Below are positions 8,012-29,400 of a stretch of 42,796 bases of DNA, piece by piece. A program made the translations under genes and the position numbers. The stretch covers positions 1 to 42,796 of IMG/VR virus record IMGVR_UViG_3300027906_000042, one strand, 5' to 3'. Position 1 is the first letter of the stretch; the number at the start of each line of letters is the position of its first letter. This stretch comes from a virus. The notes under the pieces are model-generated. The model had not been told where the DNA came from and searched no databases. It was given only the letters and a program-made list of their open reading frames with translations.

Positions 8012-9351
8012 TACAAGTTACCTGCTAATCCAAATGGGTTTGTTTCAGTGAAGTCTAATATATTATCACCAGCTGTCTCAAAAGTGACAGCCTCAGAGTA
8101 TTTAGGATCTGCTGTTGCCATTTCGTCTCTATTATCTAGCACAATTGTAGCACCAGAATCTGAGCCCATGATTGTTTCACCTATAACAAAGGTAGCGGTT
8201 GGTGACTTCAATTTAATCCAACCTTCCTGTGCATCCCACTCAACCATCTGAGCAGTTGCACCAGTAGTACCACCAGTAACCTGTTCTGGTACTGAGAATG
8301 TACCTGTTATACCAGTAGGTGCTGCAGAGAATGTAGCAGTCGCAGATGTGTAAGAACTACCAGCGTTTGTTATATCAACTACTTTAACACTCTTATATCC
8401 AGAACCACCATTAACTATATTAACAGCAGTTAGAACTCCACCAGTAAACGTAGGTGTTATGACTGCAGGAACAGCACCACCATCAGGAGCACTGACTACT
8501 AAAGTAGTTCTATCCTCATCATATCCAGAACCACCATTAACAATCTGAACAGATCTAACCTGACCTTCTTTAACAGTACCTCGAATCTCAGCTTGGGTAG
8601 TTGGTGTTCCACCACTAAGTGTTATATTACATAGATATGCTGTTGCAGTCGCACCAGTTCCATCTCCAGCAATAGTAACAGTAGGAGCTTCATTGTACTT
8701 AGAACCATTGTCACTAATGTAAATGTTCTCTATTGTATTGGTACTGCTAATAACTGGAGTACCAGTAGCAGTAATACCATTTGTAGGAAGATAGAAATGC
8801 TTGACTGTGTACCCGTAATCGACCAGATCCTCATCACCCTCGAATAGATCTCCTTGCTCATCACTGTATTCAAAGAGTTCTGCCTTAAGTTTATAAATGT
8901 ATCCTTTACCTAACTGATAAAATGGTTCTTCATGCTCTACAAATTTTATCTCAAAATAATTACTTGTTAGTGGTAGGTATATTAAATCTCCTTCTTGTGG
9001 CCTCTCTGGTGCTTGGTAGTCTTTATCTAGTAAAAGAAACTGAGAAATAAGATCAGAAAATCTTTGCTGAGATATAACCATTGTTATCTCATCAGTCTGT
9101 GCTACACCAAACTTAGTTAATAAATCTCCACCACCTTGGAATCCATCATAGTTTTCCATGTATGCTTCAATAATATATGCATCATTAAACTCACCAATTA
9201 CTTCCTCATTAAACACACCATCCTTTTCCATAATCTCTCTAGGACAGTAGAGGATATCCATCCCAAACATCTTAAGAAACTCTTCCGTAAGATCCTGTTG
9301 TAGGAACTGTTCGTTACGAGTACCGTGTGTGAAATAAGTAGTTCTTGCCAT
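8011..9351 (-). CDS. 14: Neck protein gp14 with inserted GSGY repeat region
   Basis: Part of the head-tail connector. The N-terminal 190 residues are typical gp14: YFTHGTRNEQFLQQDLTEEF, MDILYCPREIM and MVISQQRFSDLISQF. From about residue 195 to 375 there is a region of repeats of the type GSGY followed by TVT or VVS strands (GSKYNEAPTVTIAGDGTGA, GGSGYDEDRTTLVVSAPDGG, GGSGYKSVKVV). The gp14-like C-terminus DNILDFTETNPFG then follows. At 446 residues it is much longer than T4 gp14 (256). The same repeat type occurs in the giant fibre and the edge fibre of this window. TAATG junctions at both ends show tight coupling with gp13 and gp15. Confidence 0.94.
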   Translation of the reverse strand: MARTTYFTHGTRNEQFLQQDLTEEFLKMFGMDILYCPREIMEKDGVFNEEVIGEFNDAYIIEAYMENYDGFQGGGDLLTKFGVAQTDEITMVISQQRFSDLISQFLLLDKDYQAPERPQEGDLIYLPLTSNYFEIKFVEHEEPFYQLGKGYIYKLKAELFEYSDEQGDLFEGDEDLVDYGYTVKHFYLPTNGITATGTPVISSTNTIENIYISDNGSKYNEAPTVTIAGDGTGATATAYLCNITLSGGTPTTQAEIRGTVKEGQVRSVQIVNGGSGYDEDRTTLVVSAPDGGAVPAVITPTFTGGVLTAVNIVNGGSGYKSVKVVDITNAGSSYTSATATFSAAPTGITGTFSVPEQVTGGTTGATAQMVEWDAQEGWIKLKSPTATFVIGETIMGSDSGATIVLDNRDEMATADPKYSEAVTFETAGDNILDFTETNPFGLAGNL

Positions 9352-10166
9352 TAGCCAATCATGTCAAGTGGTGGTGTTTCATAACTACGGATCATCTCAT
9401 CCTCAAGTTTCTCAACTGCTTCCTTACCTTCTCTATAAATGAATTCACCATTCATTGTGATACCACCAGGTAATTGTGCTCCTTGGAACTTAATTAAATT
9501 AGATCCCCACTGCCTCTTAATTAATGCAGTAACATATCTCTTCATCCAAAGATCATTATATACAGCAGCTGTACTAGTTGGATCTATTGCACGATAGACT
9601 TCAAGAATTAAATAGTCATTCTCTTTGACATCAGTTTTAAAGTCAAGATCCAAATAAAGTCTATCCCCTCTCATCTGGAATCTAGTTTGCTTCTGTCCTT
9701 CCAGCAAGAAGTATATGTCTTCCAACCTACGGTTAACCATTTCGTAAGTAAGAATTTCTGTATTAGTTAGATCCCAAAGATCATTTAATCTCCACTGATA
9801 TCTAACATCAAATAAGTTTGTGACATTCTTAGATACAAAATCAAATACTTTTATAACACTAGTGACATGCTCAGGAACTTTAATATAATTATTCTGCTCT
9901 TCCCAATTAACTGATATAGCTGATGAAGTTGCAGCAGCTACTGCTGTAGTTGCATCAGTAGTCATGTCATCAATCATGGCTTGAGTGAACTTCACTTTTA
10001 AATGAGTTCTAATATAACCATCCATGTGACGTTCATTATAAAACTGAACAGCATCATCTACTAGATCTGATATCTGATCATCTTCAATATTAATTTCTAA
10101 AACAGGAGCACCATTCTGACGCAATGCGTAATCAATAAGTCCCTGCCTTGTAGTAGCAATGGCCAT
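9351..10166 (-). CDS. 13: Neck protein gp13
   Basis: Head-completion protein that binds the portal and gp14 after packaging. The 271 residues fit the marine T4-like gp13 length. Diagnostic start: TTRQGLIDYALRQNGAPV, followed by EINIEDDQISDLVDDAVQFY and ERHMDGYIRTHLKVKFTQ. The C-terminus has WMKRYVTALIKRQWGSNLIKF and LPGGITMNGEFIY, conserved in this family. It starts 3 bases after the stop of the subtilase-Ig gene and overlaps the gp14 start by one base. Confidence 0.95.
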   Translation of the reverse strand: MAIATTRQGLIDYALRQNGAPVLEINIEDDQISDLVDDAVQFYNERHMDGYIRTHLKVKFTQAMIDDMTTDATTAVAAATSSAISVNWEEQNNYIKVPEHVTSVIKVFDFVSKNVTNLFDVRYQWRLNDLWDLTNTEILTYEMVNRRLEDIYFLLEGQKQTRFQMRGDRLYLDLDFKTDVKENDYLILEVYRAIDPTSTAAVYNDLWMKRYVTALIKRQWGSNLIKFQGAQLPGGITMNGEFIYREGKEAVEKLEDEMIRSYETPPLDMIG

Positions 10167-10169
10167 GTC

Positions 10170-13100
10170 TTAAGTTGGGTTAACGTTGAATCTAATTCTC
10201 ACTAGATATGTAGTATTTGCATCAAGATTAACATTACCAGGAAGTGTGTAAGATACTAAGTTGGTTGAGTTACCAAGAGATTGATGTAAGATAGTTGTAA
10301 ACTGTGGGTTTGATACAGGTACTTCTGCATTAGGAGCAAACTGCCAATCACTAGAAGTATGTTGATAACCAGTCTTTAGTGCAATAGCATCAACATTAAT
10401 GGTTGGATTAAATGCTGGTGTTATTGTTTGAATGTCTGGTTGGTCAACAATAGGTGTACTGAAGTTTGCTGCAGTAGAGTATGCACTCTCCAATCCAGCA
10501 TTGTCTCTGAATTTAACTTGTACAAAATAAGATGTATCAAAATCTAAAATCGATACAGGAACAGTAAAGGTTGTTAAGTTACCTGTGTCACCCTGAGCAA
10601 ACGTTCCACTTGTATCATATACAGTGACGTTATCACCAGTTCTTCTTATCCTCCAGAATGTAGAGTAATGAGTTGACCCTGCATATTCAGAAACGAAAGG
10701 AGCAGTATTGATAACTGGTTGTCTTGAAAGCGTCTTACTTGTATCAGAATCAACAGTTGGAGTTACTGTTGCAGGACCAGATACAAACTCAGATTCATTA
10801 ACAGTAAGAGTTACTGCATTTGAAGTTACTGAAGTTGCTTCAGTATTTGAAAGAACACAACGGAACTGTTCAGCTGGATTAGTTGGGAATATAGTTGTTG
10901 GTGTAGTATAAGCAGAAGCATTGGCACCATTAATATTAGACCATGTGCTACCAGAGTTAATTGATTTCTGCCATTGGTATGAAATTACATCACTAGTAAT
11001 TGCAGCAGTAATACTAAATGTTGCGGTCTGACCCTCAATAACAGCTGTATCTACTGGTTGTTGACTGACAGTAATAAGTCTTAGAACAGTCAGTTGACCA
11101 TGATCTGAAGTTATTGATGCAGCAGATCCAACAAGAGAAACTACACAACGATAGCGATCATCGTCATCATTTGCATGTACTAATGTTGGTGTTGTATATG
11201 TTGCACTTGTTGCACCACCTACAGATGCATAGTTTGAACCATTGTCATCAGATCTTTCCCACTGATATGTTGGTGCTCCACTACTTGAAGTTGCAGTAAC
11301 ACTGAATGCAGCAGTTGCACCTTCATTTGCAGTTGGGTTAGAAGGCTGTGCAGTAATTGAGAATGTTCTCTGTACTGTTAAGGTTACGTTATTTGTATAT
11401 GCAGAGTTGGATGCTCCAGTTGCATCTAACTTACAACGATATAAATCTTGGTTATCTGCAGCATATGTTAAAGCAGCAGTTGTATATGATGCAGCTGTTG
11501 CTCCTGCAACGTTGCTCCAATTTGAACCAGCATCATCTGATTTTTCCCACTGGTATGTTACTGAGGGTTCGTGATGGGATTGGGTTTCAAATCCTCCTCC
11601 ACCTCCTCCAGTAGGGGTTGTGAAGTTCTCAGTATCAAAGGATGAACTAGCAGCATTACCACCAAAAGGTTGCATAGTAACATCACCCAAGCAAGTGAAC
11701 GTTGCAGTAGCATTTTCATTGACTGTCTGATCTGTTGGTTGAGTTGATACTACAACTGTTACTGTTTCTACTTGTAACGTTGCAGCATTTGAAGGAATAG
11801 TTGTTGCTCCAGGACAAGATAACAAACAGCGATATTGATATTCATCATATGCTGTAGTTAATGTAGGAGTTGTATATGTTGCTGTTGTACCACCAGTACC
11901 TTCAATTACATTAGACCATGATGCACCATCAGTAATTGATACTTGCCATTGGAATGTAATATCTCCAGCATCATTATCAGATGTAGTTGCAGCAACTCCA
12001 AACTGTTCTTGACCACCAACAGCACCAGTTGTATTAGTTGGTTGTGCTGTGATATTGATAGTTCTAGTTACTAAGCTTCTTGCAACAGAACTAGTTACAT
12101 TGGCTGCACCTGCTGCAGCAAGAACACAACGATAGTAATCTCCATAGCTGTCATCATACGAGGTAGATCCTGTAGTATATGTTGCAGCGGTTGCACCACC
12201 AATAGATGTGTAAGATACTCCATCACCATTCTCAGATTTCTCCCATTGGAATGTGATAGGAGCAGAATCAAGAGTACTAGCAGCAACAGTAAATGATGCA
12301 GCTGCAGGTGCAACTGGAGATGAATCTACTGGTTGATTACTTATAGTAATAGTACGGAATACTGTTAGTGTAGCAGCATTAGTGTTAGATGGTTGTACTG
12401 CTGTAGTAGTATCTAACTCACAACGGAACTGATAAGTATTCTTAGCAAAGTCATCATCAACAGTTAAAGTACTTGTAGTTACTCCACTGTATCCACCACC
12501 ATTACTTAAATTAGACCAACCTACACCACCATTACTTGAGTATTGCCACTGATAGGTGATAGTAGATCCATCAGAACTAATACCTGCAACAGGACCAAAC
12601 GTAGCAGTATTTCCAGATCCAGCCTCAACAGAAGCATTAGATGGATGCTGAGTTATATTAACAAGAACACCAGTACCTGAAGTTGTGAATGAATATGAGC
12701 GAGCACTACCTGTAATATTCTCAGTAACTGTAAAGTTAAAAGTAGTATCAATATAATCTGAAGTTACAGTACCAGTAAGAAGACCTGTAGTAGTACCAAG
12801 AGCGAGACCTGAAGCAGCAATACTATCACCACTAAGACTATATGATTCTAATGTTGGTTCACTTGCAAATGTACTACCAGCTAATCCAAGGTCAACATTA
12901 ACATTAGCACCATTTGCTAATGGACTTACAGCTAAAGCACCAGCTGCAGTTGCCCAAGTTACATTAGTATCAACATATGGGAAGAAAGCACCTCGTGTAA
13001 CTGTAAGTGGAGATGTGTTAGCATCATACTTAAAGTCAACACCTGTATCTAATGGATAATAAATTACATTGGTATATGTACCAGTACCAGCAGCTTCCTG

Positions 13101-15314
13101 TACATCTGTCTGAGATCTTAAGGTTGTTGATGTAGCAACTACACCATCAGTGCCTTCATGAAGTTTACTCTCAGGATCTACTAAAGCAAGATAGTTATTT
13201 GATCCACCACCAGTAGTACTAGCAGTAGCATTAGCAAGACCATATACAGTAACAGTATTATTGACAGCACTCTCTGCCTGAATAGTCATAAAACCATTCT
13301 GTGATAATGCAGCAATATCTAAACCACCAACTGTTAAAGCACCAGTAGATCCAGTTGTTCTTAACTGGACTTTCTTACCAACGTTACCAATGAAATGTGC
13401 AGAATCTGCAGGGTCAAAAGATATCTTAAGTTGATTACTAGTATTTGTTGTTTCAAATGGATTGTCTGGTAACTTCTTATCCACCATACTATTGGTTGGA
13501 TAATTGGTATGAGCACCTTGAGTAATATCACCAGCACTTCCAGTACCTCTAGCAAAAGCTTTTGCAAGTCCCGCTATATTGTTAGTGCTAAGAGTGTATC
13601 CATTCTTTCCACACCATGCAGCAATAATTCCAGATACTAAAGGACATGAGAATGATGTACCATTAATAGTACTATAGTTTGCTGAACTAGTATATGGTGT
13701 ATTAGCAGTCCAGTCATATTGTGGTGTTAAGATTCTGGCACCTGGTGCAACTGTTGTACATCCAGCACCATAGTTTGAGAAGTCTGCCCATCTATCATTA
13801 TATTCTGTGGCACCAACGACAATCTTTTTCTGATTAGTATCTACGTTGTTAATACCACCAACTGCATTGTCATCATATCCAGCGGTTCTAGATCCAGCAA
13901 TAACCTTAGTTTGTAAAGGACCAACGAACACATCACTATTATTTTTAAATCCATTACCTGCAGATCTACAAACAATGATAGCATGGTTAGAAGAAATTGT
14001 TCCTTCAATATCATCTAACATTTCCTCATCAGTTCCACTATCAGCACCAGAATCATTTAATTCAACATATGGATATCCTTCTGATGGTATAGTAGGACCA
14101 AAGGATGCATTGATAATAGCAGGTCGAGTATTGTTTTTATAATTTCCATTACCACTGTCGTTATGATCTATAACTGCCTGATATGCACTAAGAATTGCAG
14201 TATAGGATCCAGAGTTACTAGCATTAAATGCTTTTAGTGCATAGATCTTTGCATTCTTTGCAACACCTGCAGTTCTACCAGCAGAGAGAATGGCACAATA
14301 AGTTCCGTGGCCATTATCATCCTCATTATTAGATCCATAAGAACCAGCGTAATGAGATAGTTGATGAACTCTATAGTTCTGTTGCTCAGAAGCACCGTTT
14401 AAATCAGATACAAAGTCTGGGTCATATAGTTCTGGATGTAGAGCAGCGTTGTTACCAGTTGGTCTACTTGCTCCACGAACACCTGTATCAATTATATAGA
14501 TATCAACACCATCAGCTGATTGATTGTAACTATACTGTCCGTTTAAATATTGACGATCTTGTTTTGTTATTCTATCTAAATGCCAGAAGTCATGTACGTT
14601 AATTGTTCCGTATCTACTAATAGGAGTATATGAATACCTACCCATATTAGAATGAGCAGTACAATAGAAGAATAAGACTGAAGGGGTTGAAGCACTAATA
14701 GCAATTACTGTAGTACCATCTGTACCTGGCGTACCTGAAGTAGTTACTCCAGTTGCATATTCTGCACCACCAGTAGTATGAGTTCCATCTGGTGTTAAAG
14801 AGAATCTAAATGGATGTCCAGCATTTGAAGCGTCTGACTGGTCAAATGTATATGTACCACCTTGAGCAAAACCAGTTTGGTTTGCATATAAAGAATAAGT
14901 TCCACCAAGAGTGGACGAGAAAACAAATAGATCATTACCACTAAAATTCTGTACCTTCACATAAATGGTACCTGCACCAGTAGTAGTTAGATTTCTAGTA
15001 TTAGCAGTAGTATTACTCTCACCAGTAGTATTCAGATTTAATGGATCAGAATTATCTACGGTTAAAGTTGCTCCTGTATCAACAGGATCTACAGAAAATT
15101 TATCTTCAGCATCCCAAGTACATTTCTTAACTGGCCCCAAAGCATTCAGCTTTTCAAGCAATCCACTTGAATACTTATCGGGACAATCAAGAGTTATGAT
15201 TGAAAAACTTCTAAATGATTCTTTAAAGGTGAGATAACCGTATAATTTTAGAATTGCTGCAGCAGCGGAATCCAAACTATAATTATCAGATACCCTAACG
15301 ACTACCCTCTTCAT
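10170..15314 (-). CDS. Giant subtilisin-like (S8) protease with cupredoxin-like insert and six Ig-like domains
   Basis: A 1714-residue multidomain protein. Residues 1-80 resemble a subtilisin I9-type propeptide, ending CTWDAEDKFSVDP. Residues about 85-235 are an insert with GGTYTFDQSDASNAGHPF and a C218-x2-H221-x2-M224 motif plus H167, like a type-1 copper site. Residues about 245-600 are an S8 catalytic domain with the full triad: D276 in YIIDTGVRG, H336 in NGHGTYCAILSAG, S554 in NGTSFSCPLVSG. The oxyanion Asn is expected in CRSAGNGF. Residues about 880-1505 hold six Ig-like repeats and 1510-1714 two FN3-like modules. There is no signal peptide, so it is probably virion-incorporated. It has its own late promoter and is followed directly by gp13, the place T4 gives to wac (fibritin). 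The protease fold is certain; the substrate is unknown. Confidence 0.9.
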   Translation of the reverse strand: MKRVVVRVSDNYSLDSAAAAILKLYGYLTFKESFRSFSIITLDCPDKYSSGLLEKLNALGPVKKCTWDAEDKFSVDPVDTGATLTVDNSDPLNLNTTGESNTTANTRNLTTTGAGTIYVKVQNFSGNDLFVFSSTLGGTYSLYANQTGFAQGGTYTFDQSDASNAGHPFRFSLTPDGTHTTGGAEYATGVTTSGTPGTDGTTVIAISASTPSVLFFYCTAHSNMGRYSYTPISRYGTINVHDFWHLDRITKQDRQYLNGQYSYNQSADGVDIYIIDTGVRGASRPTGNNAALHPELYDPDFVSDLNGASEQQNYRVHQLSHYAGSYGSNNEDDNGHGTYCAILSAGRTAGVAKNAKIYALKAFNASNSGSYTAILSAYQAVIDHNDSGNGNYKNNTRPAIINASFGPTIPSEGYPYVELNDSGADSGTDEEMLDDIEGTISSNHAIIVCRSAGNGFKNNSDVFVGPLQTKVIAGSRTAGYDDNAVGGINNVDTNQKKIVVGATEYNDRWADFSNYGAGCTTVAPGARILTPQYDWTANTPYTSSANYSTINGTSFSCPLVSGIIAAWCGKNGYTLSTNNIAGLAKAFARGTGSAGDITQGAHTNYPTNSMVDKKLPDNPFETTNTSNQLKISFDPADSAHFIGNVGKKVQLRTTGSTGALTVGGLDIAALSQNGFMTIQAESAVNNTVTVYGLANATASTTGGGSNNYLALVDPESKLHEGTDGVVATSTTLRSQTDVQEAAGTGTYTNVIYYPLDTGVDFKYDANTSPLTVTRGAFFPYVDTNVTWATAAGALAVSPLANGANVNVDLGLAGSTFASEPTLESYSLSGDSIAASGLALGTTTGLLTGTVTSDYIDTTFNFTVTENITGSARSYSFTTSGTGVLVNITQHPSNASVEAGSGNTATFGPVAGISSDGSTITYQWQYSSNGGVGWSNLSNGGGYSGVTTSTLTVDDDFAKNTYQFRCELDTTTAVQPSNTNAATLTVFRTITISNQPVDSSPVAPAAASFTVAASTLDSAPITFQWEKSENGDGVSYTSIGGATAATYTTGSTSYDDSYGDYYRCVLAAAGAANVTSSVARSLVTRTINITAQPTNTTGAVGGQEQFGVAATTSDNDAGDITFQWQVSITDGASWSNVIEGTGGTTATYTTPTLTTAYDEYQYRCLLSCPGATTIPSNAATLQVETVTVVVSTQPTDQTVNENATATFTCLGDVTMQPFGGNAASSSFDTENFTTPTGGGGGGFETQSHHEPSVTYQWEKSDDAGSNWSNVAGATAASYTTAALTYAADNQDLYRCKLDATGASNSAYTNNVTLTVQRTFSITAQPSNPTANEGATAAFSVTATSSSGAPTYQWERSDDNGSNYASVGGATSATYTTPTLVHANDDDDRYRCVVSLVGSAASITSDHGQLTVLRLITVSQQPVDTAVIEGQTATFSITAAITSDVISYQWQKSINSGSTWSNINGANASAYTTPTTIFPTNPAEQFRCVLSNTEATSVTSNAVTLTVNESEFVSGPATVTPTVDSDTSKTLSRQPVINTAPFVSEYAGSTHYSTFWRIRRTGDNVTVYDTSGTFAQGDTGNLTTFTVPVSILDFDTSYFVQVKFRDNAGLESAYSTAANFSTPIVDQPDIQTITPAFNPTINVDAIALKTGYQHTSSDWQFAPNAEVPVSNPQFTTILHQSLGNSTNLVSYTLPGNVNLDANTTYLVRIRFNVNPT
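10796..12675 (-). repeat. Six tandem Ig-like domain repeats (coding)
   Basis: Six units of about 95-130 residues each show a QP or HP start (ITAQPTNTT, VSQQPVDTA), a central F/Y-QW-E/Q-x-S core (YQWQKS, FQWEKS, YQWERS), an xYTT stretch and a Y/F-RC-x-L core (YRCVL, YRCKL, FRCEL). The tryptophan and one cysteine are retained, but the partner cysteine of classical Ig domains is missing in most units. The fourth unit is enlarged by an insert with a run of six glycines and QSHHEPS. Boundaries are approximate. Confidence 0.85.
14640..14860 (-). other. Cupredoxin-like domain inside the S8 protease
   Basis: The segment encoding residues about 150-226 runs from TYTFDQSDASNAGHPF to FFYCTAHSNMG. It has the order His167 ... 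Cys218-x2-His221-x2-Met224, the ligand order and loop spacing of amicyanin-type type-1 copper sites. A related segment lies at the right edge of the window. That it binds copper is inference. Confidence 0.55.
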
Positions 15315-15329
15315 TCTGACAGTGCACTA

Positions 15330-16535
15330 TTATCCTTCAGTTGTATTTATACTGAAAAAATTGGATAGTCTTTTTTCCATTTCATAAAAGAATTCATCAT
15401 CCCATAGGAAATTGGCAATAATTCTCATAGACTTATTCCTAGTCTTTGTTAGAACTATTCCTGATTCCTGCAATTCCTCTTGACTTAAATCCCTATGTGC
15501 ATCTAAAGATAGTAGCAAACCACTAAGTCTATACCCTGTAATATAGTTTTTATTTAATAAACTTTCAGAAACAGATCTGAGTTTATCTTCTATACCTTGA
15601 CATTTACTAAACAAATTCTCACGTACAATAATATCATTAACTGTATTCATAGCAGATATACCTGTCATGGTAGGTTGCCAAGTATGCCCCCAAGTCCAAT
15701 CCTTTTTCTTTATTACATCCCCAACCTTCTTATTAGCAACAGCACAACCAAGAGGTGTGTATCCAGCAGTTAAAGATTTTCCCAATGCAGATATATCAGG
15801 TTGTACTCCATACTTCTTATACCCATGGTAATCTCCACCCTTACCCCAACATACTGCACAATCATCACTCATCATAAGAATATCATTCTCATCACATATA
15901 TGACGAATCATTCTCCACCAAGATTTTGACCATGGAATACCACCATTAATCCATGGTAGAGTTTCCATAACTATACATCCAATCTTTCTCCCACAACAGT
16001 TATATGATTTAATAACAAGATCCAAATACTTAAGTGCTTTCTCCTCAGCCTTTGCTTGATCCTTTACATCTTTCCATATAGGAGTTGGTACCTTCTTAAG
16101 TCTCTTACTTACACTATCAACCTCACTCATATCTCTAGTGAGGAATGTTGTTCCATGATAGCTTGGTGTAAAGGTAACGATATAATTACTTTGATTACCC
16201 CAATACTGATCATTCATTTTGATTGCAGCTTCAACTGCAGATGATCCAGATATAGCCCAAGACAAAACATCCCAGTTGCCTGTTGAGCAAACTAGGTCTG
16301 TCATTTTTATACACAATTCAGAAGTCTCTCCTCGATTACCTCTGACAAAGTTAACTTCAGGTGCCAAAGCACCCATTACTTCTTTATTACCGTAACCTAA
16401 TATATACGCAGAATTTCCAGACTGAAGATCTATAAGTCTAGTTCCATCAGAATATTCTATCCAATACTTATCTGTCTTAGTTACAACTTTATCTAACGGT
16501 TCTTTACTCCAAGCCCTAAGTTCATGATAGCCCAT
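15330..16535 (-). CDS. Class-III PLP aminotransferase, BioA-like
   Basis: A pyridoxal-phosphate enzyme of the class-III aminotransferase family, 401 residues, slightly shorter than bacterial members (about 430). Visible motifs: DGTRLIDLQSGNSAYILGYG near the N-terminus, SGSSAVEAAIKMNDQYW (close to the BioA sequence around its GSVAVE motif), PSYHGTTFLTRDMS, the PLP-ring Asp in MSDDCAVCWGKGGDYHG, and the Schiff-base lysine K253 in ALGKSLTAGYTPLG. All key residues are present, so it should be active. The amino donor and substrate are unknown; diaminopelargonate, ornithine, glutamate-semialdehyde or an amino-sugar are all possible in this fold. It overlaps the preceding gene by 14 bases, and the late promoter of the S8 gene lies in its last codons, so it is part of a late operon. 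Confidence 0.88.
   Translation of the reverse strand: MGYHELRAWSKEPLDKVVTKTDKYWIEYSDGTRLIDLQSGNSAYILGYGNKEVMGALAPEVNFVRGNRGETSELCIKMTDLVCSTGNWDVLSWAISGSSAVEAAIKMNDQYWGNQSNYIVTFTPSYHGTTFLTRDMSEVDSVSKRLKKVPTPIWKDVKDQAKAEEKALKYLDLVIKSYNCCGRKIGCIVMETLPWINGGIPWSKSWWRMIRHICDENDILMMSDDCAVCWGKGGDYHGYKKYGVQPDISALGKSLTAGYTPLGCAVANKKVGDVIKKKDWTWGHTWQPTMTGISAMNTVNDIIVRENLFSKCQGIEDKLRSVSESLLNKNYITGYRLSGLLLSLDAHRDLSQEELQESGIVLTKTRNKSMRIIANFLWDDEFFYEMEKRLSNFFSINTTEG
15344..15351 (-). promoter_or_regulatory. Late promoter TATAAATA for the protease-neck-terminase operon
   Basis: An exact T4-type late box, read TATAAATA on the minus strand, about 30 bases before the S8 protease ATG. It lies in the last codons of the aminotransferase gene (encoding Ser-Ile-Asn-Thr). 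The following genes down to gp17 have no comparable gap, so it probably drives the S8, 13, 14, 15, 16 ... 17 unit. Confidence 0.8.
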
Positions 16536-16854
16536 CAGGTAAATACTTTCTCAGTTTCTTATCAATGTCTCTAGGATGACCACCCATCCTTTCAACTGGT
16601 TTGGTAAATTTTAAATCATGCTTGGCATCGAATTGAAATTTAGTTCTTAAATGGAACTTATCTCTTTCCACAATTACATGATAAGAATGTCCATAGACAT
16701 TCTCTGAGAATCCAAGTCCTATTATGATTCTACCATCATAGAGTTCCCCTACCTTATATGGGCATGTCTCTGCAGTTCCATCAAAAGGTATATGGAACTG
16801 CGTAGAATCTACATGCTCTTGTTGTCTAAGTTGGCTTGACTTCTTCAGAGGCAT
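16522..16854 (-). CDS. Unknown 110-residue protein before the aminotransferase
   Basis: A 110-residue protein, charged at both ends, with a central beta-rich part (CPYKVGELYDGRIIIGLGF, YGHSYHVIVERDKFHL). It overlaps the aminotransferase start by 14 bases and the upstream coiled-coil gene by 29 bases, so the three are co-translated. No family is recognised. One possibility is a small beta-barrel accessory of the virion or of the aminotransferase; this is guesswork from context. Confidence 0.72.
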   Translation of the reverse strand: MPLKKSSQLRQQEHVDSTQFHIPFDGTAETCPYKVGELYDGRIIIGLGFSENVYGHSYHVIVERDKFHLRTKFQFDAKHDLKFTKPVERMGGHPRDIDKKLRKYLPDGLS

Positions 16855-17014
16855 TTTCAGGTTCCTTTAGTGTCATATTGAGTGCTTCGATTGCACCTTC
16901 CAATCTCAACACTTGTTCCCTACGAGTGCTAAGTTGTTTTTCCAATTCAACAATTGTTGCTTTTTGATCCTTGAGTTGATCGGTGAACTCCTTCACCATT
17001 TGTTCAGCTTGCAT
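16826..17014 (-). CDS. Small coiled-coil protein
   Basis: A 62-residue protein that is almost one continuous amphipathic helix: MVKEFTDQLKDQKATIVELE and LSTRREQVLRLEGAIEALNM show heptad spacing of hydrophobic residues. The tail is acidic. It follows an exact late promoter box by 22 bases and starts the three-gene unit ending with the aminotransferase. Small helical proteins of this kind are common in T4-like late clusters and may be assembly adaptors, but no function is recognised. Confidence 0.72.
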   Translation of the reverse strand: MQAEQMVKEFTDQLKDQKATIVELEKQLSTRREQVLRLEGAIEALNMTLKEPENASEEVKPT

Positions 17015-17035
17015 AGTTTAGAATGATAAGTGTAG

Positions 17036-17043
17036 TATTTATA
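17036..17043 (-). promoter_or_regulatory. Late promoter TATAAATA for the aminotransferase unit
   Basis: An exact TATAAATA on the minus strand, 22 bases before the coiled-coil gene. Its TAA is also the stop codon of the upstream 84-residue gene (17039-17041). Confidence 0.75.
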
Positions 17044-17293
17044 GTTGTACTTTAGTAGCAGAATCAGAGATTGTGGACGGTATATTCCACTCCAATTGAA
17101 CCTTTCCTACGTCAGCATCGGTTGGGCGTTTGTCAAAATCAAACACAGGACCGCTGTACTGCCAAGTACCGCTGCCATCATAACCTGTCAAATCAGATGT
17201 CTGAGTATTCAAAACAAACTTATATTCAAGTTTGCAGATCCATTCGGAGCTCTTGTACAAGTCAACTACTTTTAAATTTGGGTCGTGTGCCAT
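17039..17293 (-). CDS. Unknown 84-residue protein
   Basis: An 84-residue, likely beta-rich protein with VVDLYKSSEWICKLEYKFVL, TWQYSGPVFDFDKRPTD and VGKVQLEWNIPST. It has its own late promoter (17317-17324) and an AGG ribosome site. Its stop codon is part of the next late promoter, so it is a single-gene transcription unit or the first gene of a longer one. A promoter to itself suggests a product needed in quantity, such as a minor virion component. No family is recognised. Confidence 0.75.
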   Translation of the reverse strand: MAHDPNLKVVDLYKSSEWICKLEYKFVLNTQTSDLTGYDGSGTWQYSGPVFDFDKRPTDADVGKVQLEWNIPSTISDSATKVQL

Positions 17294-17302
17294 TTTAATA
17301 AC

Positions 17303-18040
17303 TTAACCTGCAAAAGTATTTATAGACCTAAAGTATGAGGTTCTCTGTAGATGCATATCTTTTTGATTTGGCTCATCACATTCCCAATCTGGATTAAAAC
17401 CCCTCTTCATTGGTATGATATGAGTGAGTGGAGTTCCTGCTTTAATGATTTCAGTACCTTCATTCACATGCCAATATAACTGAGAGATTACTTTAGTTGA
17501 TTCCAATGGATCTAATATACCAGTCACACTAGTAAATCTTCTCTCCTCAGTGTAATGTAAGTTTGTTACCAAGAATACGACATCTTTTCTACTCTTTCCT
17601 ACTTGCCAACCTGCATCAATCTTTATAATACTTTCATTAGTATTATGAGGAGGAGGGCAATATTCATGAAGTACTTCAGGGTTATGCACAGCACAAGGAG
17701 CAAATCCTAGTTGACTATGTGAGAATGGAACATTGACATTGATAGTCTTACCATCACCATTGGTATTAATTCTAACATCAAATGGACACACTAGAATATA
17801 TCCAGTATGAAATAAATTATTCAATCCAGGACATCTACTAATATTTTTAATAAATGTACCAATATAATTGGATGTATAGAACTGTGGTGAGAAAGGACAG
17901 TTTGCTTTTAACTCATTAAGTTTCTCTTTATACTTCTTATTCGGTTCACTCATCCATTTTCTAGGGATCTTGGATGCTGATACAATTGGATATTCCTCAA
18001 GAATTCCAGCGATGGAATTCGTAAATCTAATTTTTGCCAT
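17303..18040 (-). CDS. Unknown protein with Cys/His motif, paired with 2OG oxygenase
   Basis: A 245-residue protein with a compact alpha/beta look: ITFxNS-like start (KIRFTNSIAGILEEYPIVSA), then HTGYILVCPFDVRINTNGDG, a Cys/His-rich motif C116-x2-H119-x5-H125-x2-C128-x3-H132, and a C-terminal WHVNEGTEIIKAGTPLTHIIP segment. The last part resembles phage and bacterial proteins of unknown function that end in a GTP-x-QIIPFKR-like stretch. It overlaps the oxygenase gene by 14 bases, so the two are co-translated and may act together. The Cys/His cluster could bind a metal. Function unknown. Confidence 0.8.
   Translation of the reverse strand: MAKIRFTNSIAGILEEYPIVSASKIPRKWMSEPNKKYKEKLNELKANCPFSPQFYTSNYIGTFIKNISRCPGLNNLFHTGYILVCPFDVRINTNGDGKTINVNVPFSHSQLGFAPCAVHNPEVLHEYCPPPHNTNESIIKIDAGWQVGKSRKDVVFLVTNLHYTEERRFTSVTGILDPLESTKVISQLYWHVNEGTEIIKAGTPLTHIIPMKRGFNPDWECDEPNQKDMHLQRTSYFRSINTFAG
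17317..17324 (-). promoter_or_regulatory. Late promoter TATAAATA before the 84-residue gene
   Basis: An exact TATAAATA on the minus strand, 24 bases before the ATG at 17293 and inside the last codons of the preceding gene. Confidence 0.75.
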
Positions 18041-18677
18041 TACTAAAGTTAAAATTAATTAAACATCTACGTCCTTTCTGTGGTGGAGAACCAGCATGAT
18101 ACTGTCTCGAAGGGAACTGGATTAGTGTACCTGCTTTAGGGGTAATCGAATCAATTGGTTCCCATTTATTATTTCTTCTATTATCCATAGCAATATCATC
18201 ACATGTTTCCTTAAAAAGAAAAGTATCTCCAGTGCAATCATGTGCATAGTATATAAAACTCCACACATCATGTTGAGACTGTTGACAGTCTGTGTGTGGA
18301 AGATAATGTTTTGGTGGATCTGATATATCAGTTTGTAATATACCTCTAGTACGATAATTTCTATATTCAGGAATTATCTCATCTACAATCTTAGAAGTTA
18401 ATCCAATGAGAGAGTAATGAATAGGTCCATGATTAATTTGACCCATGTTAAGTATCTCCAGAACAAACTGATGATATTTCACATTATGTCCCATTTCAAA
18501 TTCAACTTCATCCTTACCAACACCCGCCAAGGCATCATCACCTATACCATAATCCATGTTAGGTTGATATAACCATGGCTGATTGAACTGCATTAATCCA
18601 GATTCAATCTCCCTTTGGTATGCTGGTCCTACAAAGTCCTCATAGACTTTGAATTTATCAAAGTGTGTAAACCCCAT
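18027..18677 (-). CDS. 2-oxoglutarate/Fe(II)-dependent oxygenase
   Basis: A 216-residue non-haem iron oxygenase of the prolyl-hydroxylase-like type. The facial triad is visible: H128 and D130 in YLPHTDCQ, and the distal H194 in RQYHAGSPPQKGRR. The 2OG carboxylate is expected to bind R203 or R204, 9-10 residues after H194. The strands between (SFIYYAHDC and TGDTFLFKE) fit the double-stranded beta-helix, as does the following ITPKAGTLIQFPS. These enzymes hydroxylate proteins, nucleobases or small molecules; the substrate cannot be read from sequence. It is followed by the Cys/His protein with a 14-base overlap. T4-like marine phages often carry such oxygenases. Confidence 0.9.
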   Translation of the reverse strand: MGFTHFDKFKVYEDFVGPAYQREIESGLMQFNQPWLYQPNMDYGIGDDALAGVGKDEVEFEMGHNVKYHQFVLEILNMGQINHGPIHYSLIGLTSKIVDEIIPEYRNYRTRGILQTDISDPPKHYLPHTDCQQSQHDVWSFIYYAHDCTGDTFLFKETCDDIAMDNRRNNKWEPIDSITPKAGTLIQFPSRQYHAGSPPQKGRRCLINFNFSNGKN

Positions 18678-18687
18678 AATAAAATTA

Positions 18688-18706
18688 ATTATACTATACT
18701 ATTATA
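18688..18706 (-). promoter_or_regulatory. AT-rich gap with two TATAAT hexamers
   Basis: The 29-base gap before the oxygenase gene contains TATAAT twice on the minus strand (18701-18706 and 18688-18693). It has no late box and no obvious -35 element. It may be a host sigma70-type promoter, which would make the oxygenase transcribed differently from its late neighbours, or simply an AT-rich spacer. Confidence 0.3.
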
Positions 18707-20599
18707 TCACTTAATCCAGTAATTTGTCGTCTGTCCCCAAGTAGCTGATCTGTTACTTACACCATAACCATCACCGAACCACTGAATACCACCCCAACTT
18801 GTGTTCTCGTAATATCCTTCACAGCAGTTACAGTTATAGTTTCCAAGAGAAGTAATCTGATATGTACTACCTGATGAAGTACCGTTAGCACTTCCTATAC
18901 CAGTAGCAATGTTTCCCAAAGATCCATTACCGAAACCATTACCAGGTGGGTTACTGAACTGAGTACCACCACAATAATATGCCCAGACATTTGAACTATT
19001 GTTCCAGTTACCACTCATAGTGCTCTTAACAAAGGTAACAGTTTTGTTTACACCACTTCCTTGGTTAGGTTGTCTATCAGCAAACCATTGGTCGGCACTA
19101 TGACTAGACATAGCATAGTTAGTACATCCAGCAGAACTCCAAAGAGATCCTCTATTAGCTGGACTTAAACCATTATATCTGTACATATTATTATTCCACT
19201 CACCATCTCCAAGAACAGTCATAGGTGGTACGTCACTACCTCCTTGTCCTATTTGTGGGAATTCAAAGTAGTTACCATTACTACACCCTTGGTTTGGCCA
19301 GTTACCATTCTTATATACAAGCATCCAACCACCACCATCTGTGTTCATATCACACCAGATAGGAATAGCACCAGCAAAGTTTGTATTGATATAGTAGATT
19401 CCATCCTCTGCAGAGGGACGTGCTGCTTTAATAGCATTAGCACTATTTGCTGGATTGGCAGGAGTACCAAGTAATTCGGTATAACCATCAGTGGTTTTAT
19501 ATCTAACAATTACAACACCACTTCCACCTGTTCCACCACTGAACTGAGGAGTACCGCCATAGCCTCCTCCACCGCCACCGCCAGTGTTAGAAGAACCAGG
19601 GAAACCATCAGCAGATCCAGGGTTGTTACCCCCTCCTCCACCAGAACCGCCACCACCAGGACCACCAGCAGCACGATAACCAGAGTTATTACTATTGTAG
19701 TTACTATTATCATCGGCACCAGCACCACCGCCGCCTCCACCGAAGACACCACTATCACCATAGTTAACCCCAAAGAGGGTTTTAAGATTTATACCATGTC
19801 CACCTGTACCAGCATATCTACGTCCTGTGAAGTGACCTCCACCACCAGCACCACCGCCACCAGAACCATATGGATCACCACCAGCATCTCCAGAGTTATA
19901 CCAACGTCCACCCTTGTGTCCTATAGAAATATCTAATGTACCATTGATTCCTCTACTAGCAGAACCACCTCCACTAGGGCCTGAACCTGCGGCTTCTCCA
20001 CCACCAGATCCACCAGATCCACCAGTTCCACCTCCAAGACCAGCATCTCCTCCACCGCCACCTATAGCGGTATATGTTCCGAATGATGATTGTCCACCTG
20101 AACTACCATTTACACCTGGGTTATTATTACCTGCACCACCATTACCACCATTACCAATGGTAACTGTATATACTTGGCCAGCACTAACAGCAAGTTGTGT
20201 TTTTAATCGAACTTGACCTGCGCCACCGCCACCGCCACCGTGCCATGTGGAGTTAGCACCTCCACCTCCTCCACCGCCGCCACCGACGATAAGGACATCA
20301 ATCTTTGCACCTGGTGGAGCAGCTTGAACTGAAAATTCTCCTGATGATGTGAATACATGCATCGTATAATTAGACATCCCTGTGGTGTCAGTAATATTAC
20401 CACCAGTAGCTTTGAAGGGACCACCAAATTGGTCAATATTAACCCACGCTAATCCATCCCATACCTGACATATGCCAGAGTCTGTGTTGTATATTACTTG
20501 ACCTTTCGTTCCTGTAGCAGGTCTTGTGCTATTATTGAAGTTTGCAGCAATCACACCTACAGAAGTGGTTACGGTTCCTGCATTAAGATTACCAGCCAT
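18707..20599 (-). CDS. Glycine-rich adhesin with fibrinogen-like C-terminal domain
   Basis: A 630-residue likely receptor-binding tip protein. Residues 1-60 carry the fibre module GQVIYNTDSGICQVWDGLAWV. Residues about 85-100 lead into VLIVGG, and residues about 100-365 are extremely glycine-rich (runs of up to nine Gly, with SGG, GTGG and NPG turns), ending in SGVVIVRYKTTDG. Residues about 385-630 form a fibrinogen-C-like domain with DGIYYI, IPIWCDMNTDGGGWMLVYK and several cysteines (CNCCEGYY). Polyglycine-sandwich adhesins such as gp38 of T-even phages have a similar composition. A late promoter-like box lies 28 bases upstream. The glycine-rich DNA is locally more GC-rich than the surroundings. 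Confidence 0.85.
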   Translation of the reverse strand: MAGNLNAGTVTTSVGVIAANFNNSTRPATGTKGQVIYNTDSGICQVWDGLAWVNIDQFGGPFKATGGNITDTTGMSNYTMHVFTSSGEFSVQAAPPGAKIDVLIVGGGGGGGGGANSTWHGGGGGGAGQVRLKTQLAVSAGQVYTVTIGNGGNGGAGNNNPGVNGSSGGQSSFGTYTAIGGGGGDAGLGGGTGGSGGSGGGEAAGSGPSGGGSASRGINGTLDISIGHKGGRWYNSGDAGGDPYGSGGGGAGGGGHFTGRRYAGTGGHGINLKTLFGVNYGDSGVFGGGGGGAGADDNSNYNSNNSGYRAAGGPGGGGSGGGGGNNPGSADGFPGSSNTGGGGGGGYGGTPQFSGGTGGSGVVIVRYKTTDGYTELLGTPANPANSANAIKAARPSAEDGIYYINTNFAGAIPIWCDMNTDGGGWMLVYKNGNWPNQGCSNGNYFEFPQIGQGGSDVPPMTVLGDGEWNNNMYRYNGLSPANRGSLWSSAGCTNYAMSSHSADQWFADRQPNQGSGVNKTVTFVKSTMSGNWNNSSNVWAYYCGGTQFSNPPGNGFGNGSLGNIATGIGSANGTSSGSTYQITSLGNYNCNCCEGYYENTSWGGIQWFGDGYGVSNRSATWGQTTNYWIK

Positions 20600-20627
20600 T
20601 TAAGTCCAACATTATAAGTTCTCTTAC

Positions 20628-20635
20628 TTATTTAG
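20628..20635 (-). promoter_or_regulatory. Late promoter-like box CTAAATAA before the glycine-rich adhesin
   Basis: CTAAATAA on the minus strand, about 28 bases before the adhesin start. The final TAA is the stop codon of the upstream methyltransferase fusion gene. It is identical to the box before gp18. Confidence 0.5.
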
Positions 20636-22361
20636 ACAGGACAAGAACATACAATCCATTCCACCACATTTTAGAATCTTCTGGATCGTTAAGAAGTTCT
20701 CTTTCATATAAAATCTTAAGTTTACTAGCTTCAACAAACCTTTTGGTAATTGCTACATTGTTCTCTATATTTGCATCATCTATAATCAACGTAAATATAT
20801 CTTGAGTAAAATTCAACATATTAAAAAAGAACTCTCTCATTTTATGCTCTGCATTGTCTCCATCATAGAATATAATATTTACATCATGCTTAAAATCATT
20901 CTTAGAAAGATTAGATGAATCACCATTCAATACTTGAATATCAAAATCTAAAGTATCAGTAGTAATATTAGTTTGTAAATTCTTAACGAATGTACTTACA
21001 GTTACATCTTCCAATCCTAATTTTATATCTTCTCGAGCTGGTTGAAGATTTGGTTGTGACCAATTATCATTTGCATATGCTCCTACCATATCGTTATTCT
21101 GTATAGCAGCACAGAATGTAGAACCAGCATATACTCCCACCTCAAGATAGACAGCACCTTCCTGGGAACAGATATTGTTTAGGAAATGTCTAACCCTAGG
21201 TGATGATAAACCTTCTATATTATAGTAAGCATCTGGGTCATTAGGATCATATGTTTTATGATTAGATATGTATTTACCAGAGTTAATGAAAGCTTCTATG
21301 CAAGTCTCTACTTGTGGGTGTACTATTAGATCCTCTTTTTTCATATGAGATTCTACAACTCTCTCACAGTAACTACAATCCCAACAATCAAACTTACAAG
21401 TTTTAATCTTTTTCCTCCATGCATTAATAGGAGCATCTTTCATTTTTAATTCTGCCTGGTACTTCTTGTACTCAGGGAACATATATTCTTCTTTATCTGC
21501 CCACCTCTTAATAAGATCCATACTCTCTTGGAGTCTCATCATACTTTCTCTACCATGTAACTTAAATACATCAATACCTAAGTTGAGCATCTCTTCCCAA
21601 TCCTCTCTCCATGGTGGAAGATTTGCTTGTTTCAAATCATACTCTGGGTGCTCTACATCCCAAGTAGAACATGATACTCTACTAATAGCACTAGCAAAGA
21701 ATATAGGATCCTTTGGTCCTCTTGTACTATTATATTGATAATGCTCTGGCATAATAGGACAACCACCCCAACATGTTTCATTGACTAGCATTGATAACAT
21801 GATAGGCTTACCTATAAACTTACAGTAATCCTTTGCCTTTCTAATTTCAAGTAATTGATCATGGTCTCTCATGAGATCACGATCTAAATTAACATAATGA
21901 AATCCTGCTTCTGCTAAAGCAACAACTTCATTTGCTCTAGTTACTTCCCTTAATATAGTATTTTTAATAAACAGATCTGGGAATGCTTGTTGAATCTGAC
22001 CAGTAGATACCCATGATGTATGCGGAAGAGTTACAACTCTAGCTCCAGCATTATAGATAGGAGCAAAATTTTCAATCCATTCATCTAAATTCTTTTGATC
22101 TGGTCGTACCCATATATTATTAAAGGTAGCAGATAATGGAATGTTACTTGTATTTGAAATATAACAAGCAGATGATATTAAAGATTCTGGCGAATAGAAA
22201 CAATCCCCCATAGCGTCCTGATCGAACGGGGGAATCCTACATGTGAAATATAAATCTAGTATATAATCTCGATACTCTATAAGGAACGGGATGAACTTAT
22301 TGACTACAAAGTCTTCATCCAGCTTTGGATTGATCGGGAGACTGAAGACTCTTCTGTTCAT
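20628..22361 (-). CDS. Two-domain enzyme: U32-like barrel plus class-I SAM methyltransferase
   Basis: A 577-residue fusion. Residues about 1-310 resemble peptidase-U32-like TIM barrels: AGARVVTLPHTSW, AEAGFHYVNLDRDLMRDHD, and GKPIMLSMLVNETCWGGCP with C197 and C201. A cysteine cluster C322-x3-C326-x2-C329-x2-C332 follows, a likely Fe-S or zinc site. Residues about 380-577 are a class-I methyltransferase: motif I YLEVGVYAGSTF (residues 405-416), then VNIIFYDGDNAEHKMREFF and TLIIDDANIENN. Members of the U32 family modify tRNA, rRNA or ubiquinone precursors with Fe-S help; this one's substrate is unknown. It overlaps the upstream gene by 47 bases; an AGG lies before the ATG. The methyltransferase call is strong, the barrel call moderate. 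Confidence 0.8.
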   Translation of the reverse strand: MNRRVFSLPINPKLDEDFVVNKFIPFLIEYRDYILDLYFTCRIPPFDQDAMGDCFYSPESLISSACYISNTSNIPLSATFNNIWVRPDQKNLDEWIENFAPIYNAGARVVTLPHTSWVSTGQIQQAFPDLFIKNTILREVTRANEVVALAEAGFHYVNLDRDLMRDHDQLLEIRKAKDYCKFIGKPIMLSMLVNETCWGGCPIMPEHYQYNSTRGPKDPIFFASAISRVSCSTWDVEHPEYDLKQANLPPWREDWEEMLNLGIDVFKLHGRESMMRLQESMDLIKRWADKEEYMFPEYKKYQAELKMKDAPINAWRKKIKTCKFDCWDCSYCERVVESHMKKEDLIVHPQVETCIEAFINSGKYISNHKTYDPNDPDAYYNIEGLSSPRVRHFLNNICSQEGAVYLEVGVYAGSTFCAAIQNNDMVGAYANDNWSQPNLQPAREDIKLGLEDVTVSTFVKNLQTNITTDTLDFDIQVLNGDSSNLSKNDFKHDVNIIFYDGDNAEHKMREFFFNMLNFTQDIFTLIIDDANIENNVAITKRFVEASKLKILYERELLNDPEDSKMWWNGLYVLVLSK

Positions 22362-26484: not shown

Positions 26485-29400
26485 TTAAACAATGCTCCAC
26501 GTACCGCCATTATTAATCGTGATCGTATTTCCATTATTTATAGTGATAGGGCCTGCGCTCATTGTGTTATCACCGTTATTTACTTGGATATCCTCAGCAA
26601 CAGTATCTCTGTTACGTCTGAATATTCCGTAAGTATCAATCCACAATTTATCGCCACTTGCTCTTAGAACTGTGCTCTTCTGACCACTTGATAATCCTTC
26701 AGATGCATTCAAGTTAACACCATTCAAACCATTAACTTGTAAACCATATGTTGATTGTGTCGTATCACTACCTGAGTAGAATGTCCAACAACCATTATCA
26801 TTAAGTGAACCAATAGATGTATCAGCATCATTCCTAAAGAAGAAGTCGGAACCAGTTCTAAAGTATGTGTGAGAATTATTAGAGAAGTAGAATCTTGGTT
26901 GACCTTCAGAACTATCGTTCCAAGTGTTAATAAGTGCTCTTAAGTATGGAAGGTTGTTTGCAGTATAACCTTGTAGTTGTGCTGCGTTAAGATTAGTACA
27001 CTCTGTAGTAGAAGAAACTACGATAGGTGAAGTACCAGTTGCAACTGTAGATCTTAGAACATTAGTTGTGCGAATATCACCAGCAACATCAAGAAGATAA
27101 CTTGGTGTTGTATCATTAATACCAACGTAGTATGTTCCACCATCCTGTCTTAGTGTTACTATATCATTATCAGTGGCAGATGAATTTCTAAGACCAAATC
27201 TAGCAATTGCTCTGTCGCCACTCTCACGACCTGATTTGATGTATAAACCACGATCATTACCATGATGACCAACTCTAAGAATAGCACCACTGTCATTTGA
27301 ATCATTACCTGCAGCGAAGTGTGCTATTTCTTTATATCCTGATGAACCACCACCATCTGTTACTGCAAGTAGTGTAGTATCTGTACCAGCCGAGAAGTTT
27401 GCTTGTGGATCGTTAGTACCAATTCCAAGTCTACCTCCACGGAAGTGAACGTTGTTATATGATAGAGATGTTCCATCCCAACCAAAGTCATTACCATCAG
27501 TACCAAAGCGGATGTAACCAACAGAACCACTGTTTCTACCCTTAACGGATAGTGAGTTAGTTGCTGCCTTACCTAGGTCAACACCATTACCACCAGCAAG
27601 TTGTAGGACAGAAGTACCAGTGTTATTGAAGATACCTTGGTCACCAGTTAAATCGTTAACTGTAAGGTGCCCAGAAGCGTCTCTACGGGCGATTGTATTA
27701 CCACTGGCAGCAGTAGACTGGACAAATCCATCTAAGTAATGAGCGTCTAGCTGTGAGGAACTACCATCATTACCTGCGTGCCACACGGTGTTACCGTTGA
27801 CGGTGATATCACCAGTGTTAATTCTTAAAGTACCGTTTCCATCGTTGGTGTTACCACCAGAAACGATCATCTGAACATCATAGTTTGGAGCTTGTCCAGA
27901 AGAACGGAAGTCAAGTGTTGGGGTTGTGGAAGTAGCTGCCTTACCAATTTGTAGTTTAGCACCTGCAGCAGCATCACGTAATCCAATAACTGTAGTAGAA
28001 CCACTGGAGATTGGGTTGGATGATGTTACAGTCCACTTGGTGCCTGGGTTAGGACCAACAACATAAATGTTTGCATTAGTATTATTACCAACAAATGCGA
28101 TTGTACCTGTGACTAAGGTGTAGACTTCACCAGATGTGTGAGTTGCTTCAGTAACACCGTTAGCATCAACTACGATAGAACCAATGTTATTTGTTGCACC
28201 TACATCAGAGTAGATAGTGTAAGTACCACTTGGGTTAATATTACCGTTAGTACCAGTTCTTGCGTGATAGTCTGGGATGTAAAGTGTGTACTTCAGTCCA
28301 CTGTCATTAACATAGAAGTTCTCAAAGACCATCTTGTCCTGACCGAGGACTTCAGGTAAGAACATATCACCCATAGGTTTGTTAATACCACCTTGGGAAG
28401 CACCGAAGTTATAACCAGACTGATACCATAGACCTTGATGTGCATCTAGTTTATCAGCATCTAGGCCGCTTGCGGCACCATCATTAGCACCTGACCAGAT
28501 TTGATTCCAGTTACCATATACAGCATTACCACCAGAGTTACCTCTAATCCAAAGGTTGTCATTATCAGTCCAACCTAGCTGAATAGCAGCAGAACCTGTT
28601 GCTTCTCTTCTGTAGGTCGTAATACCATGTGTGGTACCACCATCAGTTAGACCAGTTGCACTGTTATTTCTTAATGCAGCAGATACACCATTCGCTGCCT
28701 GAGCAGGACTTGGGTTAGAAGTTAGAGATGCAGTCTCGTTAAATATTCTGTTTGCAGTATCTGCAGTACCAGATATAGAAATGTTATATGTGGTATTTGC
28801 AAGACGTGCAGGGTCAATAGTACCAGCAGTTAAGTTACCTGCATTCTGATAGAATGCACCGTGGTTACCATCCAGTTTGTCAGCATTAAGTTCAGATCCA
28901 GCACCCTGATCAATAGTTACCTGACCATTATTGTCAATTACGAAACCACCTTGATCTTGGTTACCGACTGCCTGGTTAGCAACATCCTTACGGAAACGGA
29001 ATACACCGTAGTTACCATAGACAGTAGCAGCAGGTGTTAAGTTATCACCCTTTCTAATATCAATCTCAATGTTACCATAAGATCTATTAATAGTACCCTT
29101 AACAGCAGCAAGGATCGCTCCATTACCACCACCAAATTCAGCAGGAATTGTAATACTAAATCCAGCAGTATATCCTGTACCAGAGTCAGTTATAGTAGCA
29201 GATGTAATTACACCAGAAGTAACGATGTAAGTTGCTCTTGCAACACCAGTGTCAGTAACACTAACGTTACCACCTTCAAGTGGAATGTTCTGATAGGTAC
29301 CATCTGTATATCCAGTACCACCATTAGTAATTGTAATACTATCGATGTATGTACTATCTGTTAAAGATCCACCAACAACTACACAATCCTGAGTAGTAGG

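Follow-up and report, generated by a model that had tools for sequence, protein, structure and literature searches.

The large gene directly upstream of gp13 in this T4-like cyanophage DNA encodes what we consider, on balance, to be a modular, late-expressed virion appendage whose N-terminal part is an active subtilase resembling proteinase K. It is best read as a stalk of Ig and FN3-like domains that bears an exchangeable protease head; we infer its target, metal binding and virion position. The most interesting result lies outside the original prediction made for this DNA: blue-copper-type domains occur in cyanophage virion proteins and are repeatedly fused to subtilases. The window (the whole 42,796-nucleotide stretch that was analyzed) is kin to the Eurybiavirus isolates P-HM1, P-HM2 and MED4-213, and its genes lie on the minus strand. 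This also holds for the protease gene, a real open reading frame for which no strand had been given (Table 1). From N- to C-terminus, the product comprises an I9-like prodomain, a cupredoxin, an S8 subtilase, a beta region, six Ig repeats and two FN3-like repeats.

Table 1 Features of the protease gene and its immediate surroundings (window coordinates).
Feature	Position	Strand	Basis or remark
Whole gene	10170..15314	(-)	1714 aa, single unbroken ORF; family phrog_27200 = T4-GC519
Late-promoter-like box TATAAATA	15343..15350	(-)	30 bp 5' of ATG
I9-like prodomain, residues 1-70	15105..15314	(-)	AF2 beta-alpha-beta-beta-alpha-beta, pLDDT about 80
Cupredoxin-like domain Cup1, residues 113-236	14607..14978	(-)	AF2 beta-sandwich, pLDDT mostly 74-94
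His167, candidate metal ligand, invariant	14814..14816	(-)	Alignment of relatives
C218-x2-H221-x2-M224, candidate type-1-copper ligand motif	14643..14663	(-)	Alignment of relatives
S8 subtilase catalytic domain, residues 237-600	13515..14606	(-)	Pfam, AF2, Foldseek
Asp276, catalytic	14487..14489	(-)	Alignments of relatives and phage subtilase families
His336, catalytic	14307..14309	(-)	Alignments of relatives and phage subtilase families
Asn454, oxyanion hole	13953..13955	(-)	Alignments of relatives and phage subtilase families
Ser554, nucleophile	13653..13655	(-)	Alignments of relatives and phage subtilase families
Beta-rich region, residues 601-910	12585..13514	(-)	Sequence
Cup2 insertion point, residues 657-665	13320..13346	(-)	Most relatives carry Cup2 (~122 aa) here; absent in window protein
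Six Ig-like repeats, residues 911-1506	10797..12584	(-)	W...C pairs, Pfam, PHROG
C-terminal FN3-like pair, residues 1507-1714	10173..10796	(-)	Proposed virion anchor; conserved in all relatives
gp13 neck protein (head-tail adaptor family)	9351..10166	(-)	phrog_211, 8e-40; annotated gp13 in P-HM1/P-HM2

Enzymatically, sequence and model together place the protein among the proteinase K-like subtilases, with a predicted subtilisin alpha/beta fold. Pfam Peptidase_S8 matched residues 269-580 (E = 3e-25, well above the curated cut-off), and the nearest PDB sequences to this part were aqualysin, keratinase and proteinase K. The triad D276-H336-S554 sits where it had been proposed, in D-H-S order within family S8 motifs, and N454 can be added as the oxyanion residue. 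None of the four residues varies among the full-length IMG/VR relatives or the cultured isolates. They are also invariant (54/54) across three phage subtilase families, once the S-H9-1-like (phrog_9158) and S-CREM1-like families were added from IMG/VR, and in a 66-sequence alignment, the families being aligned at ~20-27% identity. Evolutionarily, codon comparisons indicate that the S8 domain is under strong purifying selection, with dN/dS of ~0.10-0.14 in the pairs divergent enough to be informative, a value usually at or near the minimum among the domains of the protein. When the AlphaFold2 alignment for residues 1-645 comprised just close relatives, the S8 domain was poorly modeled (mean pLDDT 56). 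A deep alignment including the two extra families gave a pTM of 0.81 at a mean pLDDT of only 70, and the top Foldseek matches of that model were keratinase (TM 0.74 by target) and aqualysin (TM 0.76 by target, rmsd 3.2). Such modeling had been suggested as a check for a collapsed active site, and it predicted instead a subtilisin fold in intact order. Judging from motifs and model, the subtilase is apparently active. A search for a cellular source of the protease returned as its best match an 84% identical protein on a Red Sea contig, with other matches at 24-29% identity; that contig, assigned to a Dehalococcoidia MAG, probably stems from a phage and was misbinned.

Upstream of the protease, a propeptide of ~240 residues had been proposed. 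Residues 1-70 are indeed I9-like, with a ferredoxin-like topology confidently predicted for residues 1-67, although Pfam I9 gave no match in the N-terminal region up to E = 5, but residues 113-236 form a separate cupredoxin-like beta-sandwich (Cup1) that had been overlooked. Its candidate ligands (H167, C218, H221 and M224) follow an amicyanin-type H...CxxHxxM spacing, the CxxHxxM part being that of amicyanin. M224 and H167 are invariant, and C218 and H221 are kept except in one clade (C to N, H to T). Several independent losses of C218 and H221 were considered and rejected, as the six sequences concerned are 92-100% identical and form a single clade. Metal binding by Cup1 would be dispensable in that clade, whose phages keep a second cupredoxin, Cup2. 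The case for Cup1 as a cupredoxin-like domain is indirect, since its own profile found no significant match in the PDB and the link runs through Cup2: hhalign aligned Cup1 with the plastocyanin-like Cup2 (78%, E 1.8e-5) with the ligand motifs in register. Foldseek with the 645-residue model listed no cupredoxin among 50 matches, which subtilisins dominated.

Cup2 itself is an insert of 114-133 aa in most relatives, and all 42 of their second domains carry the Cup1-type ligand motif (42/42). Its sequence matches plastocyanin 1b3i (5.7e-5), and its profile matches CuNiR 2dv6 (3.1e-5), plastocyanins and amicyanins. By sequence relation and ligand set, the Cup2 of relatives is a type-1 copper cupredoxin with predicted copper binding. 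Both cupredoxin types recur in proteins of cyanophages, pelagiphages and methylophilales phages, where proteins sharing the module are annotated as tail fiber, gp9/baseplate wedge or virion structural protein (their PHROGs including tail-fiber and baseplate ones); the gp9 homologues of many cyanophages also match it. Fusions with S8 occur at four positions: between prodomain and S8 (the window family), after S8 (P-HM1-type), inside S8 (S-BM3) and at the C-terminus of phrog_9158 proteins (S-H9-1, ACG-2014e/i/j). A C-terminal cupredoxin with the full motif is present in 56/78 complete phrog_9158 proteins, and a fused cupredoxin in just 3/72 complete proteins of the S-CREM1-like family. Because the module is common in fibers, module shuffling may explain the fusions, and a functional link is possible. 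In the open-access literature we found no paper on cupredoxins in cyanophages or on copper domains in tail fibers, nor a report of cupredoxins coupled to phage subtilases.

For the metal part alone, and compatibly with an active protease, the cupredoxins could instead be metal-free beta-sandwich spacers whose H-C-H-M motif is a structural relic, which we regard as possible but clearly the less probable option. It would fit the clade that lost C and H while keeping H167 and M224, as well as the commonness of the domain as a module in cyanophage fibers. Against it, the full motif persists in all 42 of the 42 Cup2 domains, in 56 of the 78 complete phrog_9158 proteins, and in unrelated fibers too.

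Structurally, the Ig and FN3-like part of the protein would form a stalk. The six Ig-like repeats that had been proposed are borne out by six W...C pairs (residues 921-965, 1022-1063, 1121-1163, 1254-1294, 1350-1390 and 1446-1486), by one repeat that passes Pfam (Ig_3, 9.6e-8), and by PHROG matches to Hoc-like and head Ig families over the region (phrog_4069, 2e-5; phrog_613, 7e-41). The two FN3-like repeats are plausible from sub-threshold Pfam matches, but the C-terminal pair found no match in the PDB. Read by eye, the sequence shows no signal peptide.

Transcriptionally, the proposal of a late promoter directly upstream of the gene holds, because the seven-base core ATAAATA of TATAAATA occurs six times in the window, always on the coding strand (6/6), and five of the six copies lie 22-54 bp ahead of a gene start, in intervals that cover ~3% of that strand. 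The main text of the P-HM2 transcriptome study (Thompson 2016) gives no value for the homologue PHM2_106. Downstream, the stop codon of the protease gene falls within a few bases of the gp13 start, and gp13 is followed by gp14, gp15, gp17, gp18 and gp19 (Pfam and PHROG scans). On the other side, between the fiber genes and the protease gene (window 15330-22361), three products are encoded, a class-III aminotransferase (2.9e-45), a 2OG-Fe(II) oxygenase and one whose C-terminal domain resembles Methyltransf_24, at a position where P-HM1 and P-HM2 carry different genes. Farther away (26485-39045), a fiber-like protein of 4186 aa without a confident Pfam domain is, by position, probably the counterpart of P-HM1/P-HM2 'YapH' (GC513).

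The slot itself is conserved. Of the 68 loci whose 3' end is not truncated, 67 have gp13 directly after the protease gene, and the position is the same in the isolates P-HM1, P-HM2 and MED4-213. The one exception, S-BM3, has the gene ~12 genes from gp13, still within the gp8-gp13 block. The comparison across relatives that had been called for thus finds a fixed slot and not a scatter over unrelated positions. In T4, the gene before 13 is wac, which encodes the neck whisker (fibritin). The original prediction's term 'fibritin (wac) slot' is apt for the adjacent upstream position but not for any likeness of the protein, in which Pfam and PHROGs scans found no fibritin family. We read the place before gp13 as a variable-appendage slot, because other Kyanoviridae fill it with unrelated fiber or adhesin proteins, including Mtd_N-bearing structural proteins (ACG-2014b, S-SZBM1), a short 'tail fiber' protein (Melnitz-3) and, elsewhere, other short proteins; LamG or DUF4815 proteins are encoded nearby.

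A single locus, L044 (2110-6165), offers a genuine replacement of the N-terminus. It shares the slot, Cup2, Ig repeats and C-terminus with the window family, and another N-terminal module (~190 aa), which weakly matches (6e-4) the beginning of an S-CAM1 protein with a proximal tail fiber annotation, stands in place of prodomain, Cup1 and protease. Exchangeable heads mounted on a fixed stalk would be expected to give just such a variant. Three further loci (L017, L026 and L058) were rejected as protease-less variants, being frame splits that leave two ORFs of one gene.

Proteomically, indirect support comes from the relative S-SZBM1, whose purified virions yielded 25 peptides of SSZBM1_200 and nine of SSZBM1_206 by mass spectrometry (PMC9146016 Table 1). 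SSZBM1_200 is encoded 6 bases before gp13, and SSZBM1_206 (L361:2611-4107) is a baseplate wedge protein with a complete C-terminal cupredoxin motif (HPF...CTIHSGM), so the gp13-slot product and the cupredoxin module are both virion components in that phage. The neighboring product SSZBM1_207 (L361:4134-5732), also detected in virions, shows an apparent YHYH-like domain and an Ig-like repeat when its translation is read by eye. By analogy with S-SZBM1, the window protein is probably virion-borne. A protease on the neck or collar had been proposed, of which a protease in an appendage slot is the reasonable part; neck or collar is not singled out, as the Ig repeats score against head-decoration/Hoc-like families and tail families alike. 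An open-access literature search for a Felixounavirus structure by which to place the Ig repeats found no paper.

Taken with the catalytic residues, predicted fold, slot, Ig scaffold and late promoter, these data favor the proposed active protease in a virion appendage, shorn of wac likeness beyond position. We posit that the C-terminal pair would anchor the protein on the particle, with the Ig repeats as its stalk, and that the I9-like domain would chaperone the protease and keep it inhibited until it cleaves itself after residue ~70. Once mature and displayed on the virion, the protease could cut proteins on the Prochlorococcus surface or in surrounding debris during attachment. The cupredoxin would most likely bind a metal, probably copper, taken up after release into seawater, and may serve as a metal-stabilized structural or adhesive module as in other cyanophage fibers, electron transfer not being implied. 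If this is true, phages that infect the extremely abundant photosynthetic Prochlorococcus carry an active protease on the particle, borne by an interchangeable stalk in a conserved slot. Moreover, with blue-copper-type domains in cyanophage fibers and baseplates, one of them in a proven virion protein, marine phage particles may bind copper.

The strongest competing account, to which we assign a distinctly smaller chance, is that of an assembly-time protease that sits on or near the particle, cuts itself or neighboring appendage proteins once during maturation and persists as an inert structural domain. The I9-like prodomain and zymogen layout would suit it, as would the subtilases of S-H38 and S-CREM1 among baseplate genes and that of P-SSM2 beside a fiber gene, where structural substrates are made. 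It sits poorly, however, with other Kyanoviridae, whose large proteins encoded ahead of gp13 are fiber- or adhesin-like and not processing enzymes, with the retention of the scaffold in L044 without a protease, and with the fact that no conserved substrate gene was identified.

We think it unlikely that the product is a soluble cytoplasmic or lysis-phase protease outside the virion, whose Ig repeats just bind other phage or host proteins. The missing signal peptide is compatible with this, the virion proteomics come from other phages, and the prohead protease gp21 illustrates that T4-like phages can encode non-appendage proteases. Yet the six Ig repeats match virion families, the C-terminal pair is conserved, the gene has a late promoter within a structural gene cluster, and the gp13-upstream slot has a virion-detected product in S-SZBM1.

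More improbable still is a metal-gated virion protease, in which the cupredoxin would hold no metal as long as it is in the host's reducing cytosol, and seawater copper would alter the prodomain linkage, leaving the protease active only on the free virion; the repeated fusions would then reflect functional coupling and not shuffling. Phage adhesins often recycle enzyme folds, but a binding-only pseudo-protease that retains the S8 fold as an adhesin is the least credible account, given that all three families keep the four catalytic residues unchanged and that the S8 domain is among the most constrained of the protein.

Our preferred reading, the active protease head on a virion stalk, builds on a gene that had received a one-line mention: Sullivan et al. 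2010 listed 'an S8 peptidase (T4-GC518)' among the genes common to P-HM1 and P-HM2 only (PMC3037559). Since these genomes hold one S8 gene each (PHM1_104/PHM2_106, GenBank label GC519), that is almost certainly the gene meant, and the S8 peptidase of P-HM1/P-HM2 was in this sense already known. These two proteins and CPMG_00018, all of Eurybiavirus and annotated as hypothetical protein only, share slot, catalytic residues and ~68-70% identity with the window protein, and differ by carrying Cup2 after S8. S-BM3 SBM3_00202 ('peptidase S8', L003:9316-17262) has an S8 domain with complete catalytic motifs, Ig repeats and a C-terminal pair 41.5% identical to that of the window protein, but bears one cupredoxin inside S8, another after it and none before, as well as a YHYH domain, and lies apart from gp13. 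Pfam misses its S8 because the inserted cupredoxin splits the domain; the suspicion that its name was an annotation transfer was rejected, as tblastn and translation show a complete S8.

More distantly, the phrog_9158 lineage (S-H9-1, ACG-2014e/i/j) also pairs a phage S8 with a cupredoxin, usually C-terminal and with the same motif, but its proteins are mostly ~670-690 aa, lack an Ig stalk, lie elsewhere in the genome and have an S8 ~22% identical to the window's. The peptidases of P-SSM2 (PSSM2_297, PF00082), S-CREM1 and S-H38 are likewise S8 enzymes encoded among baseplate or fiber genes, and the S-CREM1-like proteins, unlike the window protein, are almost never fused to a cupredoxin. Beyond phages, aqualysin I (4dzt) and keratinase (5wsl), both proteinase K-like, share the catalytic fold and active-site motifs but are enzymes secreted by cells and have neither a phage scaffold nor a cupredoxin. 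Plastocyanin, amicyanin and CuNiR are matched by Cup2 in sequence and profile, whereas the phage domains are embedded in a structural protein and their metal binding is predicted. T4 fibritin resembles the window protein in its position before gene 13 only, with no recognizable sequence similarity and with an enzymatic N-terminus and Ig repeats found in the window protein instead; those repeats are similar to Hoc (phrog_4069, phrog_613).
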